Part shown: positions 20,661-51,595 of the stretch, one piece after another
Position numbering within the stretch: the first letter of the stretch is position 1
Layout: each line of letters begins with the position of its first letter
NCBI RefSeq assembly: GCF_003546865.1
Contig: NZ_CP023434.1
Coordinates: forward strand, 1,426,001 to 1,490,000
Source of the DNA: Suicoccus acidiformans
GTDB taxonomy: Bacteria; Bacillota; Bacilli; Lactobacillales; Aerococcaceae
Reading direction: 5' to 3'
Length of the DNA: 64,000 nucleotides
Translations under genes and position numbers: made by a program
The notes under the pieces: model-generated
The model's database searches: none
Told to the model about the DNA's origin: nothing
The model's input: the letters and a program-made list of their open reading frames with translations, nothing else

Positions 20661-21174
20661 TAAAATTAAGCTAGAAAAATAAATAAGACACTTTGTGCTA
20701 CGCTATTTATGAGAGCAATCACAAATAAAGGAGTAGACACAAAATGGCCTACACACATCTTACCACGAAAGAACTGACTTGGATAGAAAACTATTACGAA
20801 ATTGGCGAAAAAGCTTACATAGTCGCAAAAAAGTTAAAAGAGATGGTCTGCCTAAAGGTACTGATTTTAATGAAGTAGATGAAGACTTTCTTAAGGAAGT
20901 AACCTTCAAGCGACATATCATTCCACGTAAATCTCTTAACGAATACACTCCCCTGGAGGTTTTCTTGGCCTTTCTTTTGGATCAAATACCTGGATATTAT
21001 GCCAGCCACTTAAGAAATATAGTTTCATCAAGCACCTGACTCCTGCAGAGTCGCTAGCGCTTTTCCTCTTGACCAGTCAGGAGTTTGATAAAGGGGGCTG
21101 TTTAAGGTGGTTAGCACAAGTATGTCACCAAGTTCAATCACTAATCATATAGTGTAAAAATTTCTAACTTAAAT
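20661..21174 (+). mobile_element. Internally deleted IS30-family element (non-autonomous)
   Basis: About 0.5 kb against roughly 1 kb for an intact IS30. Imperfect terminal repeats can be seen: AATTAAGCTAGAAAAAT at the left and, inverted, GATTTAAGTTAGAAATTTTT at the right. Inside, the first 32 codons of a transposase (from ATG at 20744: AYTHLTTKELTWIENYYEIG) are joined out of frame to its last 65 codons (frame ending at 21039). The 3' part matches the remnant at 1570-1926. Confidence 0.75.
20744..21039 (+). pseudogene. IS30 transposase, internal deletion
   Basis: The N-terminal helix-turn-helix region (KELTWIENYYEIGEKAYIVA) is in one frame and the C-terminal end (GTDFNEVDED…FKRHIIPRKSL) in another. 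The catalytic DDE core is missing. It cannot encode a working transposase. Mobility would need a full-length relative elsewhere. Confidence 0.75.
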
Positions 21175-26982: not shown

Positions 26983-28265
26983 CTACATAAACCACCCCAC
27001 CAGCCGCTCTTTCAAGCTTGTATACGGCGGGTAGCGCAGGGGGATGTCAAAGGCGTCGGTCTTCTCCATGATGCCCTTCGGATGCGAGAAGGTCTCGAGG
27101 CTATGCTTGCCGTGATATTGGCCCATCCCGCTGGCTCCCACGCCACCAAAAGGCAAGTTGTGATTGGTGAAGTGGATGAGAGTATCGTTAATCGTCCCGC
27201 CCCCAAAGGCCACGTATTTAACAATATCATGCTTGGTCGCCTCATCCCGGCTAAAGAGATACAAGGCCAAAGGCTTGTCCTTGCTCTGAATATAAACCAC
27301 CGCTTCCACCAAGTCCTGATACGTCAATACTGGCAAAATAGGTCCAAAAATCTCTTCCTGCATTAACTCCTCATCTAGCGGCGGATTCAATACGACCGTC
27401 GGGGCAATGACCCGCTCCGTGTCATCGCTTTGGCCACCAAAGTAAACGTCGTTATGCTCCACCAAGTTCTTCAAACGCCAATAATGCTCTTCATTAATAA
27501 TCTTCGGGAAATCCGAATTCGTAATCGGCGACATGCCCCATACATCTCATGGACCGCATTCTTAAAGGCGGCTAAGAAAGGCTTCAAGACAGCTTCATCA
27601 ATCAGAACATAATCCGGTGCAATACAGGTTTGCCCGGCATTGGTAAATTTGCCCCAAGCAATCCGCTGGGCAGCATGGCGTAAATCCACGTTGTCTGTGA
27701 CAATCGCGGGGCTCTTGCCACCCAACTCTAAGGTCACGGGCGTCAAGCTTTCGCTAGCCGGCTTCATAATTTCACGGCCCACCGCGGTACTGCCGGTGAA
27801 GAAGCAATAATCCACGCCGGCTTTCAAAAGGTCTTGGCTGACATGGCCGTCCCCTTCCATGACTTTAATATAGTACTCTGGGAAAGTGCTGGTAATTAAC
27901 TCATTGAGCACCCGGGAGACGTTGGTCGCCATTTCCGAGGGTTTGAGAATGACGCCGTTCCCAGCAGCTAGGGCACCAATTACGGGAATGAGGCTCAGTT
28001 GCACTGGGTAATTCCAAGGCGCAATGACGAGCACTACCCCATAAGGCTCCTGATGGATGTGGCTTTTCGAGTAGAAATGCATGAGGCTAGTAGGGACCTT
28101 TTTGGGGCGGAGGAATTTGGGTAATTCCCGCTTCAGCTTCTTAATTTCCGCATAGATCATGCCTATTTCCATAATATAGCTCTCCATGGGGACCTTGTTC
28201 AAATCCTGCTTCAAGGCTTCAATGAGGTCGAAATAATAGTAATCCACGGCCGCTTTCAGCCGGTC
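26983..28265 (-). pseudogene. Aldehyde dehydrogenase, 5'-truncated and frameshifted
   Basis: The N-terminal homology begins abruptly at about 28265 (SRTDRLKAAVDYYYFDLIEA); the first 20-30 codons and any promoter are missing. The body carries VIAPWNYP, FFTGSTAVG, the catalytic Glu in LELGGKSPA and the catalytic Cys in NAGQTCIAP. Near 27535 the frame shifts by one base; the rest (SPITNSDFPKIINEEHYW… GGVGASGMGQYHG) runs in another frame to 26983. The intact protein would be of the class 3 aldehyde dehydrogenase type, about 460 residues. The break and the lost start make it non-functional. Confidence 0.85.
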
Positions 28266-28269
28266 TGTC

Positions 28270-29082
28270 CGGGATAGCTTCCATTATTTGCGTACCGTGC
28301 AGAAAGAGCAAGTGACCAATCTGTACCGCCTGCCGGAAATAAGTGAGCCAGAGCTGAAGGCGCTGGACCGGCCGCTGAAGATTGCCTATAGCCGCCAGCA
28401 TCCCCGGGGCGGTGCTCTCTCTAAGGATGCAGCAAATGCTTTGGAGACGAGCCATGGCGCCTTGCGTGCCCTGGGCCACACCCTTGAGGAAGTGGCGCTG
28501 GATGTGGACCAGGAAGCAATTTTGCACTATTATTATTTGGTGATGGGCTTGGAGTCGGGCAAATTAGTGCGCGAAGCTGAAGCAACGGGCAAAAAGGTGC
28601 GCTGGGGCGAGGTTGACCCGCTCGTGTGGGTGGCCTACCAATTAGCACCCCATGTGCCAGCGACTGCCTACTCCGACTTTAACGCCTTCCAAGACCAGCT
28701 GTTTGAGTATATGGAGCTGCTCTATCAGGACTACGATATTTATTTAACGCCAACAGTTTCGGACGTCGCCATGAAAAATGCGGATTTAGCCTACCCGCCA
28801 GCTTTATTGGCGCGCATTCAGGAGATGGACTCCTTACATGCGTCTGAAGTGTGGGACGTGACCAAGGCGACCTTTGACTATACCTATTTGCGCACGTCCT
28901 ATAATCAGTTGATGAACATCACCGGCCAACCAGCCATCTCCCTGCCTTTGTTCGAGAATGCGGACGGCTTACCGTTGGGTACACAGCTGGCCGCCAAGCG
29001 CGGGGATGAGTATGTGTTGCTGCAGTTAGCCGCGCAGTTGGAAGCGGCTGGATATTTGAAGGCGGGGAATGTGGAGATGTGA
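28270..29082 (+). pseudogene. Amidase C-terminal half
   Basis: About 265 residues match the C-terminal half of amidase-signature enzymes (LTPTVSDVA, NITGQPAISLPLF, GLPLGTQLAAKRGDEYVLLQLAAQLE). The N-terminal half with the catalytic Ser-cisSer-Lys triad and GGSSGG motif is absent. The homology starts at about 28270, directly against the truncated aldehyde dehydrogenase on the other strand. It is more GC-rich than the pot and PTS operons. No start codon with a ribosome site is seen. Confidence 0.8.
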
Positions 29083-29110: not shown

Positions 29111-29400
29111 GCCACGGCTGGGATGCTGTGGCTTATTTGTTGTTTGGTGAAAGGTATCCAAGCAATAGTTTGCTTGGGGCAATCCAATACGCTGTTGGCA
29201 AAGTTTCACTTGGCGAAGGCTAGAACTAATTTTTCCCCAAAGAAATCCAATCCAGTTTGTCCACTCGATCGCTGCTCAGATGCTCTGATTCCGCGGGAAT
29301 CAGTTCTCACGAAAGGATTTTCGTACCATATTCCGTCGGAGCACCTCCCCACGGAATTTTCGGCGGATTTTATTCCGTCGAGACCACTTCCCACGGAATC
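29111..29400 (+). repeat. Composite intergenic repeat, copy A (split by IS66)
   Basis: It opens with a hairpin, GCCACGGCTGGGATGCTGTGGC (22 nt, 29111-29132), then a second hairpin CCAAGCAA-TAG-TTTGCTTGG (29158-29177), and ends with tail units of the form ATTCCGTCG…CCACGGAAT at 29330-29357 and 29372-29399. After removal of IS66 and one target copy the tail runs on into CAGACATATATAAG (31622 on), like copy C. See copies B and C. Confidence 0.75.
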
Positions 29401-29479: not shown

Positions 29480-29830
29480 TTGATTCGACTAACTGAAGAA
29501 GACAGTTATTACATCGTCTATGGTAAGACTGACCTGCGTAAAGGGATCGACACCTTAGCAATTCTCCTTCAACATGATTTTAATCACGACCCTTTTGATG
29601 GGGCTTACTACTTCTTTTGCGGTAGTCGCTCCGATCGTTTCAAAATTCTACATTGGGATGGTGAAGGCTTTCAGTTAATCTATAAACGATTGGAGAATGG
29701 TAAGGTCCACTGGCCCAGAGCTAATCAAGCCTGCTTAGAGCCCATGAGTTTGATGGAGGTGACCAGGTTATTAAAGGGCTTTCCCCTTAAATCTTCAATC
29801 TCAGTTTCGTCAAAAAAGTTATTTTATTAG
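29480..29830 (+). CDS. tnpB: IS66-family accessory protein TnpB
   Basis: 116 residues of the IS66 Orf2-like family (VYGKTDLRKGIDTLA near the N-terminus, FFCGSRSDRFKILHWDGEGF, ENGKVHWPR). The start is TTG at 29480, with GGAGATG just upstream. In IS66 elements this small protein is needed for transposition along with TnpC (family knowledge). The usual first gene, tnpA, is missing and there is no room for it. Confidence 0.88.
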   Translation: MIRLTEEDSYYIVYGKTDLRKGIDTLAILLQHDFNHDPFDGAYYFFCGSRSDRFKILHWDGEGFQLIYKRLENGKVHWPRANQACLEPMSLMEVTRLLKGFPLKSSISVSSKKLFY

Positions 29831-29904
29831 TGTTTTAGTGGCTGCTTTTTGGAAGCAAATCTAGTAGAATAGGGGTATCTATTTAAGGAGGAGGTGCCCC
29901 AGAT

Positions 29905-31473
29905 ATGGTTGATACCTTAACACGCGAGGAATTGCTTTCAGAACGAGAAGAATTACTTGTCCGTCATGAACAACTCGCTAAGCAATTAGAGTTACTCCAA
30001 CAAGAACTCCACTTGAAGAATGAGGAGAATCAGTACCTGCGCCACAAACTCTTTGGCCGGTCCAAAGAGACCCATCAGGTCGCAGACGGTCAGCTATCTT
30101 TATTTGATGGGGTGCCTCCCATTGAAGAATCTCCAGACTTGCCAGATGAAGAAGACCTGGTAGTTCCTAAAAAGAGAAAGAAACAAAAAGGACAAAAGCG
30201 CAAAGTCTTGGAACAGTTCGAAGAAGTTCCAGTGGTCCATAAGTTAGAGGATAAGACCTGTCCTTGTTGTCAAGACGAAATGGTGGAAATTGGCAAGACC
30301 AAGGTCCGGGAAGAAGTAGTCTACCAGCCTGCTCATTATGAAAAACAAGTCCATTATGGGACCTCTTACAAGTGCTTAACTTGCTCAGAAGAGGAGCCTC
30401 AAGATGTAATCGTCAAAGCTCCTGTTCCAAAAGCCCCGATTCAAAATAGTCTGGGGTCTGCTTCGGTGATCGCTCAAACCATTCAACAGAAGTATGTCCT
30501 CAAAGTTCCCGCTTATCGGCAAGAAAAGGTCTGGAAAGAGGGAGGGCTACCGATTAATCGCCAACAGATTAATCGGTGGCATATTCTGTGTGCCCAATAT
30601 TACTTTGGTTATCTTTGGGAAGAATTGGCCAAGGAGCTTCTATCCCAAGACATTATTCATGCCGATGAAACCAGCTATCGAGTGATTGAAAGCGATAAAA
30701 CCAATACTTATTATTGGCTCTTTCAATCTGGCCGTCATGAGGCCCACCCCGTGGCAATCTATCTACACGATGAATCACGAGCTCATCGGGTGCCTCAGGA
30801 ATTCTTAGCTGATTTCAAGGGCCATCTCCATTCGGACATGTACAGCGCCTATTTGAATCTGCCGGATGAGATCACGGTAGTGGGATGCTTTGCCCACCTT
30901 CGTCGCAAGTTCTATGAGAGCCTGCCCAGCAATGCCCCTCCTGATTCAGTTGCGGCTCAAGCGGTTGCCTACTGCGACCAAGCTTTTGCCTTAGAGAAAT
31001 CTTGGAGAGATTTGCCGGCTGAAGAAAGGTTTCAATTACGCCAAGAGGAACTGTCTGTGGTGTTGACCAACTTGTTCGATTTAATCGAACCCTACAGTTA
31101 CCAAGCGACAACAGGCAAACTCTCCAAAGCCATTGCTTATGCGACCAAGCATAAAGAATACTTTATGAATGTCCTCAAGGACAGTCGCTTAGAGCTAAGC
31201 AATAATCTGGCAGAAAGGTCCATCAAAGAACTGGTCATCGGCAGGAAGAATTGGCTCTTTTCATCCAGCCTGCAAGGAGCTCAAGCTTCTGGCATCATCC
31301 TATCTTTGAAAGTGACAGCTGACTTGAACGGCCTCTCTCCGGTGGCTTATTTCCAACTGCTCTTAGAAGAATTACCCACCCTGTATGCCGAGGGAACTTT
31401 ACTCGACCGTCTACAGGCTTATTTACCATGGTCTGATTATGTAAAAGAAAAACTCGGTAAAAAAGAATCATAA
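29905..31473 (+). CDS. tnpC: IS66-family transposase TnpC
   Basis: 522 residues, full length. An N-terminal coiled coil (residues 5-45) is followed by the zinc-binding cysteines CPCC and CLTC (residues about 115-160). The DDE catalytic core shows HADETSYRV, HSDMYSAYL and NNLAERSIKELVIGRKNW. GGAGGAGG lies shortly before the ATG. It appears intact and could be active. Confidence 0.93.
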   Translation: MVDTLTREELLSEREELLVRHEQLAKQLELLQQELHLKNEENQYLRHKLFGRSKETHQVADGQLSLFDGVPPIEESPDLPDEEDLVVPKKRKKQKGQKRKVLEQFEEVPVVHKLEDKTCPCCQDEMVEIGKTKVREEVVYQPAHYEKQVHYGTSYKCLTCSEEEPQDVIVKAPVPKAPIQNSLGSASVIAQTIQQKYVLKVPAYRQEKVWKEGGLPINRQQINRWHILCAQYYFGYLWEELAKELLSQDIIHADETSYRVIESDKTNTYYWLFQSGRHEAHPVAIYLHDESRAHRVPQEFLADFKGHLHSDMYSAYLNLPDEITVVGCFAHLRRKFYESLPSNAPPDSVAAQAVAYCDQAFALEKSWRDLPAEERFQLRQEELSVVLTNLFDLIEPYSYQATTGKLSKAIAYATKHKEYFMNVLKDSRLELSNNLAERSIKELVIGRKNWLFSSSLQGAQASGIILSLKVTADLNGLSPVAYFQLLLEELPTLYAEGTLLDRLQAYLPWSDYVKEKLGKKES

Positions 31474-31523: not shown

Positions 31524-31661
31524 TTTAGACTTTCTGTAAATTGCTTGAGATCCTTGGTTTTGGTGTCCAGGTTGTCAGAGAATTATCAAGTTACCTGATT
31601 ATCGACCGCTTACACGGAATCCAGACATATATAAGCAACAATCACACACCCCTTAAAGACA

Positions 31662-37119: not shown

Positions 37120-37448
37120 GCCACGGCTGGCAGCCGTGGCTTCCTTATTGATCTCGATAAGGTAACCTAAAACAACCAGTGCTTTGGATTATTCAATCCA
37201 CCAATCTGCTTTGACGTCTTTAGATGACGAAACGACTTGCCCCAAACAGACATCTGCACAATCGCTACTGGCCGATTCCGTCGAGACCACCGCCCACGGA
37301 ATACATTCCGCCGATTATTCCGTCGGAAGAAGCCCCTACGGAAGTTTCCGCGATTTTTCTTCCATTTAACTACTTCTCCACGGAATTTTCACCCAATTTT
37401 ATTCCGTCAGACCACTTCCCCACGGAATCCTGTCGTATTTATACGACA
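37120..37448 (+). repeat. Composite intergenic repeat, copy B
   Basis: The head GCCACGGCTG-G-CAGCCGTGGC is a perfect 10-bp stem (37120-37140). TTCCTTATTGA and a weaker second hairpin (CCTAAAACA/TGCTTTGG) follow. Tail units ATTCCGT…ACGGAAT lie at 37275-37302, about 37317-37342 and 37401-37428. The element closes with the hairpin TGTCGTATTTATACGACA (37431-37448). Head, linker and tails align with copy C over their whole length. Any reading frames inside are products of the repeat, not genes. Confidence 0.8.
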
Positions 37449-44946: not shown

Positions 44947-45230
44947 GCCACGGCTGGCGGCCGTGGCTTCCTTATTGAACTAGATAAGATAACCTAAAGC
45001 AGCAAATGCTTTAAGTTATTCAATACGCCAATCGGCTTTGTCGTCAATAGAAAACAGAACGACGTGACTCAGGCAAACGTCTGCGCAAACCTTGCTACTG
45101 CATTCCGTGGGGACCACCGCCCACTGAATAAATTTCGCCGGTTATTCCGCCGGACACCTTTCCCACGAAATTTTCACCCAATTTTATTCCGTCGGACTCA
45201 GTTCCCACGGAATTTAGACATATATGAGAC
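44947..45230 (+). repeat. Composite intergenic repeat, copy C
   Basis: Head hairpin GCCACGGCTGGCGGCCGTGGC (21 nt, 44947-44967), then TTCCTTATTGA as in copy B, then the hairpin TAAAGCA-GCAAA-TGCTTTA (44994-45012). Tail units lie at 45102-45129, 45144-45171 and 45186-45213 (ATTCCGTCGG…CCCACGGAAT), ending with AGACATATATGAGA. It lies between fabK and the promoter of the formate channel gene. Confidence 0.8.
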
Positions 45231-50072: not shown

Positions 50073-50100
50073 CAAAAAAGCAAACGCACGCTGCGTCTGC
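50073..50100 (-). terminator. Terminator of the dioxygenase relic operon
   Basis: Minus strand GCAGACGC, loop, GCGTTTGC, then TTTTTT. Confidence 0.75.
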
Positions 50101-50112
50101 TCCTGTCAGCTT

Positions 50113-50788
50113 CTATAAATTCACTACATAAGTCTGCGCCAATCCTACCCTACTCGGTAAAGTTGCAGGGTCTGCCTCCTTTTCCACAGGGTCATAGGCT
50201 AACAAGGCCGAATTGCCGGTCAGCATCACATTAATTTCATAAACCGCCACGCCACTTCCTCACCAATACGCTTGGCCAGCAAGGTCGCAGCCTCTTCAGG
50301 TGCTAAGGCCATAATAAAGGCATCATCCTGGGCTTCATCTTCAAAGTAGACCCGAACATAGACAGGCAGCGCCAGCCCCCGCATGTGAAGCAATAAAACG
50401 ACATTCGGATTTTGCAGGACTCCTGCGCGTTCTATTGTCCCTGGCTTAACCGTCTCGAAGCGGTAGAAACCTTTCGGTCAGTGGTCGTGCACCCAAAGCC
50501 AAAGAAATTAGGATCAAAGTCCTCCAGCTCGGCTTCAGCCGGATGGTTGTACACCCCGGCGCTATTGGCCTACCACAATTCAACAAAGACATTAAAGAGT
50601 GGCAATTTCTCCTTCAACGTAAACATATACACCTGAAAAACAATCGCTTCTCCTGGCATTTCCGCATAACACAAGTCGTGATTCACCTTAACTTGACTTT
50701 GTCTGCCTTCAAGAAAAAGGCCTAGCGTTGGATAGGGGGCAGACGTCTGCTTGGAGATCGCATGTTGGTGCAATTGTGAATCGGTCAT
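50113..50788 (-). pseudogene. pcaG: Intradiol dioxygenase alpha subunit relic (protocatechuate 3,4-dioxygenase type)
   Basis: Starts at ATG 50788 (DSQLHQHAISKQTSAPYPTL) and reads to LFNVFVELW, where TAG replaces the usual Gln codon before ANSAGVYNHPAEAE. Further frameshifts follow (DFDPNFFGFG, then FYRFETVKPGTIERAG, then INVMLTGNSALLAYD) down to a stop at 50113. The order of segments matches the non-catalytic alpha subunit of protocatechuate 3,4-dioxygenase. It lies directly behind the beta-like gene, as in pcaHG operons. At least three lesions, so it is dead. Confidence 0.75.
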
Positions 50789-50797
50789 CTACATCCC

Positions 50798-51524
50798 CTA
50801 CTTTCTCCCGTAAGGCTCTGCTTCTTCAACAGTCAACATATGCGTATTCGGCATCGATGGCAAACCTTCGCTACCCCTCAAGACAATATCAAATCGATAG
50901 CCCAGGGCAACATCTGGAATCGTCAAATAATGGTGATAATGGGCAATCACCCGCTTTCGGTTAGCTTCAGGCAACTTAAGAAAGACCGTCTCATCACAAT
51001 CCAACAAGGGATTCCTTGCGGAATACAGTTGCGTCACCAGACAATCAGCCAGCCGGGGACCCATGACCGAATAATGAATATGCGCCGGACGTCACCGATT
51101 CTCAGACGGCCGGAAGGAGTAATTGCCCGGCTTAATCGCAATAAACTCATAATGCCCTGCCTCGTCTGTATAAGACCAGCCGCTGCCTACGAAATTCGGG
51201 TTCAAAGGCGCATCTCGGGTATACAATTGATGCACATAGCACCCGCCGTATTGGCCTGCCAAATTTCAATAAAAGCCTGTGATACCGGCTTGCCGGCTTC
51301 ATCCGTCACCTTCCCTTGAATCACAATCCGCTGCCCGATGGCTTCCTGGCCTGTCCCAGCATTAGTCGCCAGGTTATTGTTCTTTCCATACTTCGCCGCT
51401 AGCGCTGGCCCGGTCCAGGCTCAAATAAGGGAAATAATTTTTTGAAATCCTGTTTATTCAACTCCGCCCCGTGGTCACGAACATACTCCCAAGATGCATA
51501 ACTCGTAATGTCTTCTGGCTTCAT
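50798..51524 (-). pseudogene. pcaH: Intradiol dioxygenase beta subunit relic (iron-binding)
   Basis: Starts at ATG 51524 (KPEDITSYASWEYVRD), with GGAGGAG upstream. Later segments in shifting frames are VIQGKVTDEAGKPVSQAFIE, IWQANTAG, HQLYTRDAPLNPNFVGSGW, GHYEFIAIKPGNY and RPAHIHYSVMGP, then an open stretch 50798-51064 (LVTQLYSARNPLLDCDE). The iron ligands of the family are recognisable: Tyr in LYTRDAP, Tyr in KPGNY, both His in HIH. Stops after GPGQR and before RPAHIH, and several frameshifts, inactivate it. The family cleaves protocatechuate or related catechols between the hydroxyls. Confidence 0.8.
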
Positions 51525-51547
51525 TGCACTCGTCTCCTCCGCACAAT

Positions 51548-51595
51548 AATGCATTAATATATTGATATTAACGGTGCATCAATGCATTAATATAT
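51548..51595. promoter_or_regulatory. Two direct 15-nt repeats upstream of the dioxygenase relics
   Basis: AATGCATTAATATAT occurs at 51548-51562 and again, exactly, at 51581-51595, 33 bp apart (about three helix turns). It lies 24 bp upstream of the pcaH start and may be a leftover operator. Confidence 0.5.

Follow-up and report, generated by a model that had tools for sequence, protein, structure and literature searches.

Aromatic ring cleavage is, to our knowledge, not usually credited to Lactobacillales. Two adjacent dioxygenase remnants in the genome of Suicoccus acidiformans raise the question of what was lost there: a complete protocatechuate pathway, or something smaller. The decayed pcaH-pcaG pair occupies the minus strand from 50113 to 51524 of the 64,000-nucleotide stretch of contig NZ_CP023434.1 that we analyzed (hereafter, the window). 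An earlier sequence-only reading had described it as a two-subunit protocatechuate-type dioxygenase in a host of Lactobacillales type, a placement of the host that is supported, and had taken the lesions to mean that a pathway was once present and then lost. Among the matches listed in literature searches on protocatechuate and intradiol dioxygenases (Aerococcus, Lactobacillales, active site), Suicoccus, and Hutsoniella, and as far as the text of those matches goes, none concerns this unit.

When read in three frames from 51524 to 50113, the minus strand yields one pcaH-like and one pcaG-like protein, scattered across several frames (Table 1). A PF00775 profile search of the whole 2.57-Mb genome returned three stretches (2.5e-19, 6.8e-12, and 1.0e-6), all over the curated cut-off of 27.3 bits, and no match elsewhere in the genome outside this locus. 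Among five window pieces compared with NCBIfam, the beta-subunit model TIGR02422 matched two (9.3e-13 and 4e-18) and the alpha-subunit model TIGR02423 matched one (3.6e-6); the other two, namely the leading piece of each gene, matched no NCBIfam dioxygenase model. These results agree with the sequence-only reading on the presence of both subunits and on their order, and the profile search that it had proposed as a check of family places the fragments in PF00775 and in the beta- and alpha-type models. The pcaH remnant begins at an ATG that aligns with the start of a relative (a further ATG lies at 51554), and its original-frame stop codon is 50798-50800; pcaG starts 9 nt after this stop and ends, by eye, at an original-frame stop codon at 50113-50115. 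Amino acid identity to five intact relatives is 57-62% for the pcaH remnant and 34-41% for the pcaG remnant. The window thus holds what marks the two-subunit intradiol dioxygenases of the PcaHG type, namely the domain, adjacent co-directional genes, and four iron ligands, while open reading frames for both subunits are absent from it, each gene carrying two frameshifts and one stop.

Table 1. Features of the decayed pcaH-pcaG locus, in window coordinates.
Feature	Position	Strand	Basis or comment
15-nt direct repeat AATGCATTAATATAT, copy 2	51581..51595		exact match, 33 nt start to start
15-nt direct repeat AATGCATTAATATAT, copy 1	51548..51562		exact match, upstream of pcaH
pcaH remnant (beta, iron-binding subunit)	50798..51524	-	PF00775 matches over cut-off; TIGR02422; alignment to relatives
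Frameshift 1 in pcaH	51409..51413 (near 51410)	-	alignment to five intact beta subunits
Frameshift 2 in pcaH	51239..51240	-	same position against 5/5 references
In-frame TGA in pcaH	51092..51094	-	immediately precedes RPAHIH, which carries His460 and His462
pcaG remnant (alpha subunit)	50113..50788	-	PF00775 1.0e-6, over cut-off; TIGR02423; alignment to relatives
In-frame TAG in pcaG	50570..50572	-	frame-aware alignment
Frameshift 1 in pcaG	50472..50476 (near 50476)	-	so placed by five references
Frameshift 2 in pcaG	50251..50261 (about 50258)	-	exact position and type vary with reference
Terminator hairpin and T run, downstream of pcaG	50076..50104	-	-17.9 kcal/mol, z -2.93

To call lesions, we aligned the window in a frame-aware manner with five intact beta and five intact alpha subunits. 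The result bears out the earlier view that the genes have decayed, and all three pcaH lesions recur against each of the five intact beta references. An extra shift near the gene end, seen in three of the ten alignments (the L019 and L015 beta subunits at 50814-50821 and the L019 alpha subunit at 50750), we take as poor alignment there. Although the window still spells all four iron ligands (two Tyr and two His), split by a stop, the first pcaH frameshift lies about 39 codons in and precedes every one of them, so the unit is dead in the window. It is dead in this genome.

A second line of evidence concerns the sites that relatives keep constant. In pcaH (242 codons), six intact genes all agree at 124 sites, of which the window changes 19; in pcaG (203 codons), it changes 13 of 55. 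As a leave-one-out control, the intact L016, L017, and L019 genes were treated in the same way. For pcaH they were changed at 13/137, 13/137, and 10/134 sites, compared with 22, 27, and 24 for the window, respectively; for pcaG the values were 12/67, 11/66, and 9/64, compared with 20, 22, and 17. For L015, L018, and L021 this control yields almost nothing (0-3 changes), because a closer relative of each stays in the set. The excess in the window is about twofold and not overwhelming. A two-omega codon model did not separate the branches for either gene (pcaH, 0.050 for the window versus 0.023 for the background, 2dlnL 0.91; pcaG, 0.322 versus 0.051, 2dlnL 0.47). An omega of 1 across the whole window branch was rejected for pcaH (2dlnL 15.2) and not for pcaG (1.54), which indicates that most of the pcaH branch passed under purifying selection. 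We read this as a gene that stayed under constraint for the greater part of the time since it separated and that decayed during a later, undated part of that time. The sequence-only reading had called for an age from dN/dS; none results, since synonymous sites are saturated, several branches carrying more than 10 neutral changes per codon. Nor can synteny set the time at which the pair arrived, as relatives of the neighboring GltS within the host family are only 31-38% identical.

With both lines in hand, we considered whether the genes might be intact in the organism, with the frameshifts and stops arising from errors of sequencing or assembly. The genome is a single contig for which the technology is not stated, single indels could be assembly errors, the omega of the window is not significantly raised, and the remaining letters keep all four ligands. 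However, some 1.4 kb contains six lesions, of which two are stop codons interrupting frames that can otherwise be read, and long neighboring genes (e.g., GltS and an arginase-family gene) are open. The four indels lie, by eye, in runs of at most three equal bases, unlike typical homopolymer errors. The six lesions, together with the excess of changes at conserved sites, favor a pseudogene, and we regard an error of this kind as very unlikely. Even harder to credit is the suggestion that the remnants still encode small working proteins or specify an RNA. Fragments of 51-97 codons without a stop persist, as do the upstream repeat and the terminator, but the breaks fall inside the conserved domain and the iron ligands are split between two pieces with a stop codon in between. 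We conclude that the pcaH-pcaG locus of S. acidiformans is very probably a pseudogene pair, the remains of a two-gene unit of the PcaHG type.

The flanks of the pair retain the terminator and the upstream pair of 15-nt repeats that had been noted from the letters, and both are real, as judged by hairpin energy and by exact copies. When the window was shuffled 100 times, 8 of the products contained at least two matches to AATGCATTAATATAT (allowing up to two mismatches); taken by itself, the pair is therefore weak support for an operator. Visual inspection of the sequences preceding five intact pcaH genes, drawn from four genomes, did not reveal the repeat. A hairpin as good as that of the terminator arose in 3 of 200 shuffles, and the list from a simple terminator pattern scan does not contain it.

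Several other features of the window and genome were recorded along the way. An aldehyde dehydrogenase (PF00171) at 26983-28247 is split across two overlapping minus-strand frames and is probably another pseudogene; it adjoins a C-terminal amidase piece (28288-29082) and two ORFs that resemble IS66 transposases by eye (29480-31473). Repeats belonging to dispersed families of 112 and 208 nt, with copies that resemble the reference at 63-78%, occur at 29288-29399, 37120-37428, and 44947-45213, where they overlap plus-strand ORFs that look spurious. A 260-nt inverted repeat, 94% complementary, lies at 1655-1914 and 20838-21097, 19 kb apart, and the adjoining segment 1956-2045 also matches 31524-31613. 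Outside the window, a second copy of a GltS-type symporter (C1:2285772-2286937) is in two pieces, one with an internal TAG, a hint that gene decay extends more widely through this genome.

Intact counterparts, which the sequence-only reading had proposed to seek in close relatives, were found in 5 of 75 other Aerococcaceae genomes. These are G044 (Aerococcus sp. HMSC062A02), G101, and G055, which belong to one genus, together with G032 and G019 (Hutsoniella sourekii ATCC 700629), the last with two pairs. Across the family, 7 of 76 genomes match PF00775 (S. acidiformans included), six of them over the cut-off. In a sample of 395 genomes from the order, eight match and six exceed the cut-off (again including S. 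acidiformans), all six being Aerococcaceae, which fits the earlier remark that a ring-cleavage enzyme is rare in Lactobacillales. The matches in G030 and G298 were set aside as weak and below the cut-off; by eye, the former sits among genes for a cell-wall-anchored protein and a sortase. With an intact beta subunit as query, 12 of 398 genomes sampled from the class matched, namely S. acidiformans and 11 from other orders; since the matches listed for the class contain none of the five relatives with pairs, this sample did not include them. The 11 are single ORFs of about 260-285 residues, single-subunit intradiol dioxygenases of other Bacilli that share the domain core at 34-44% identity and can be aligned only over about 120 residues.

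The intact pairs resemble the window in gene order (the same in all six loci looked at), in an N-terminal stretch FPLF[EQ]PG.GPA (6/6), and in clade membership; unlike the window, their frames are open and their flanking genes differ. The six pairs occupy five different neighborhoods, one of which is shared by G044 and G101. A permease that looks KdgT-like by eye is found near the second G019 pair and the G055 pair, directly beside the pair in one case and about 6 kb away in the other.

Enzymes of this type hold Fe(III) and insert O2 between two hydroxyl-bearing carbons. Numbered as in PDB chain 2pcd_M, Tyr408, Tyr447, His460, His462, Arg457, and Gln477 are invariant in a 22-row beta alignment (A1) of the six Aerococcaceae sequences and 16 of 31 outgroup sequences. 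Of the ligand motifs that the sequence-only reading had assigned, KPGNY and HIH stand and LYTRDAP does not, the first Tyr ligand lying instead in a YVH stretch. A structure model of the beta subunit of an intact relative (pLDDT 68.5), rather than of the broken protein itself, scored Z 18.7-19.2 against 13 PcaH chains. Some rows of the fold search align the first residues of the model, but none of those for PcaH extends to chain residue 324; the model before about residue 34 is barely tested by this search. At this modest model confidence, the beta subunit of this relative is predicted to have the intradiol dioxygenase fold.

How close, then, are these proteins to the classical protocatechuate 3,4-dioxygenases? 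Like PcaHG of Pseudomonas (2pcd) and Acinetobacter ADP1 (1eo2), the pair consists of adjacent beta and alpha genes with PF00775 domains, and the intact relatives share the six residues named above. PcaHG is also their best match in the PDB by sequence and, for beta, by fold. Beyond the broken state of the window copy, the Aerococcaceae proteins as a group differ from PcaHG. The outgroup came from 36 loci that had been retrieved by patterns based on an Aerococcus protein; beta was extracted in 31 of them and alpha in 33, and the alpha alignment (A2) used 17 of the 33. In a 38-sequence tree with all 31 outgroup beta sequences, mostly from Alphaproteobacteria and Actinobacteria, the seven from Aerococcaceae, that of the window among them, group together on a long branch as a single clade (support 1.0). 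The N-terminal arm motif Y.ST..R.P, present in 31/31 outgroup beta sequences, occurs in 0/6 intact Aerococcaceae ones. Its Tyr is chain residue 24 (Tyr324), which we take to help hold the substrate carboxylate; among the six, only L018 carries a Tyr at this alignment column. At alpha Arg133, which presumably has a substrate-related role in the classical enzyme, five of the six intact Aerococcaceae proteins have Ser; L017 and the remnant in the window have Arg. The outgroup has Arg in 32 of 33 (29 by pattern, three by eye), the exception looking frameshifted. The alpha C-terminus is longer in Aerococcaceae and lacks ETVFF (0/6 versus 32/33 in the outgroup). Finally, for the one of six intact pairs that was scored (L015), beta reached 255 bits and missed the TIGR02422 equivalog cut-off of 296.4, and alpha passed that of TIGR02423 (154.1 versus 126.25). 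Given the missing arm motif, Ser at alpha 133 in five of six, and the one scored beta subunit under its equivalog cut-off, protocatechuate is doubtful as the substrate on these sequence features and should not be assumed.

We then return to the pathway. The possibility that the lineage had a complete protocatechuate (beta-ketoadipate) pathway and lost it after a change of habitat draws on the PcaHG type of the pair, and was examined by a search that spanned pcaB, pobA, UbiD, and CMD. In the six genomes comprising S. acidiformans and the five with intact pairs, pcaB (TIGR02426) exceeded the cut-off in 0/6 (control, 2 of 14 named genomes), pobA in 0/6 with one weak match in S. acidiformans (control, 1/14), and UbiD gave no match (control, 9/14). 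The CMD family (PF02627, the family of pcaC) exceeded the cut-off in two of the six through partial matches, S. acidiformans not among them (control, 12/14). The check for other aromatic catabolic genes in the S. acidiformans genome thus returned none over cut-off among the four searched.

The top pcaB-like matches of three genomes, all below the cut-off, do not point to a pathway either. Those of G019 and G101 sit among purine genes, and by eye they look like adenylosuccinate lyase. The highest score of all, 275 bits against a cut-off of 355.75, belongs to a pcaB-like lyase that G055 carries among amino-acid transporter genes (L069 7464-10146); by eye, one neighbor is MmgE/PrpD-like and others are amino-acid ABC transporter genes. 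Other matches include three in G044 and a weak one in S. acidiformans. By eye, no gene of the beta-ketoadipate pathway was recognized beside any of the six intact pairs. Set against the two genomes with CMD-family genes, the lack of pcaB, pobA, and UbiD over the cut-off even where the pair is intact makes a complete former pathway very unlikely, and the sequence-only claim that one was present and then lost is not upheld. What was lost is the two-gene unit, without sign of a lost protocatechuate pathway, and a change of habitat as the cause is speculation.

For the two-gene unit itself, we propose that the ancestral genes were transcribed together and encoded a PcaHG-type intradiol dioxygenase with two subunits and a non-haem Fe(III) center. 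Its beta subunit would have held the iron via two tyrosines and two histidines, with the alpha subunit completing the active site, and O2 would have been used to open the ring of an ortho-diphenol between its two hydroxyls. The substrate was probably such an ortho-diphenol, and protocatechuate is not required. Operation without a downstream beta-ketoadipate pathway may be the normal state in Aerococcaceae, and the unit would have been lost from S. acidiformans after becoming dispensable. We suggest, tentatively and with rather less confidence than for the pseudogene itself, that the Aerococcaceae pairs could form a separate, uncharacterized subfamily that stands alone without the beta-ketoadipate pathway and acts on a carboxylate-free catechol (e.g., of host or plant origin) for detoxification or signaling rather than carbon gain, the window coming from a genome where the unit died.

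Together, these findings describe a dead copy that is a genuine, ordinary gene loss and in itself of low interest. The intact lineage, rare in the family, divergent, and apparently without a pathway, is moderately interesting, and the pseudogene serves to point to its few members in Aerococcus and Hutsoniella. These intact enzymes lack features that presumably bind the classical substrate, and the pathway genes searched for were not found with them, so an assay could reveal a new substrate.
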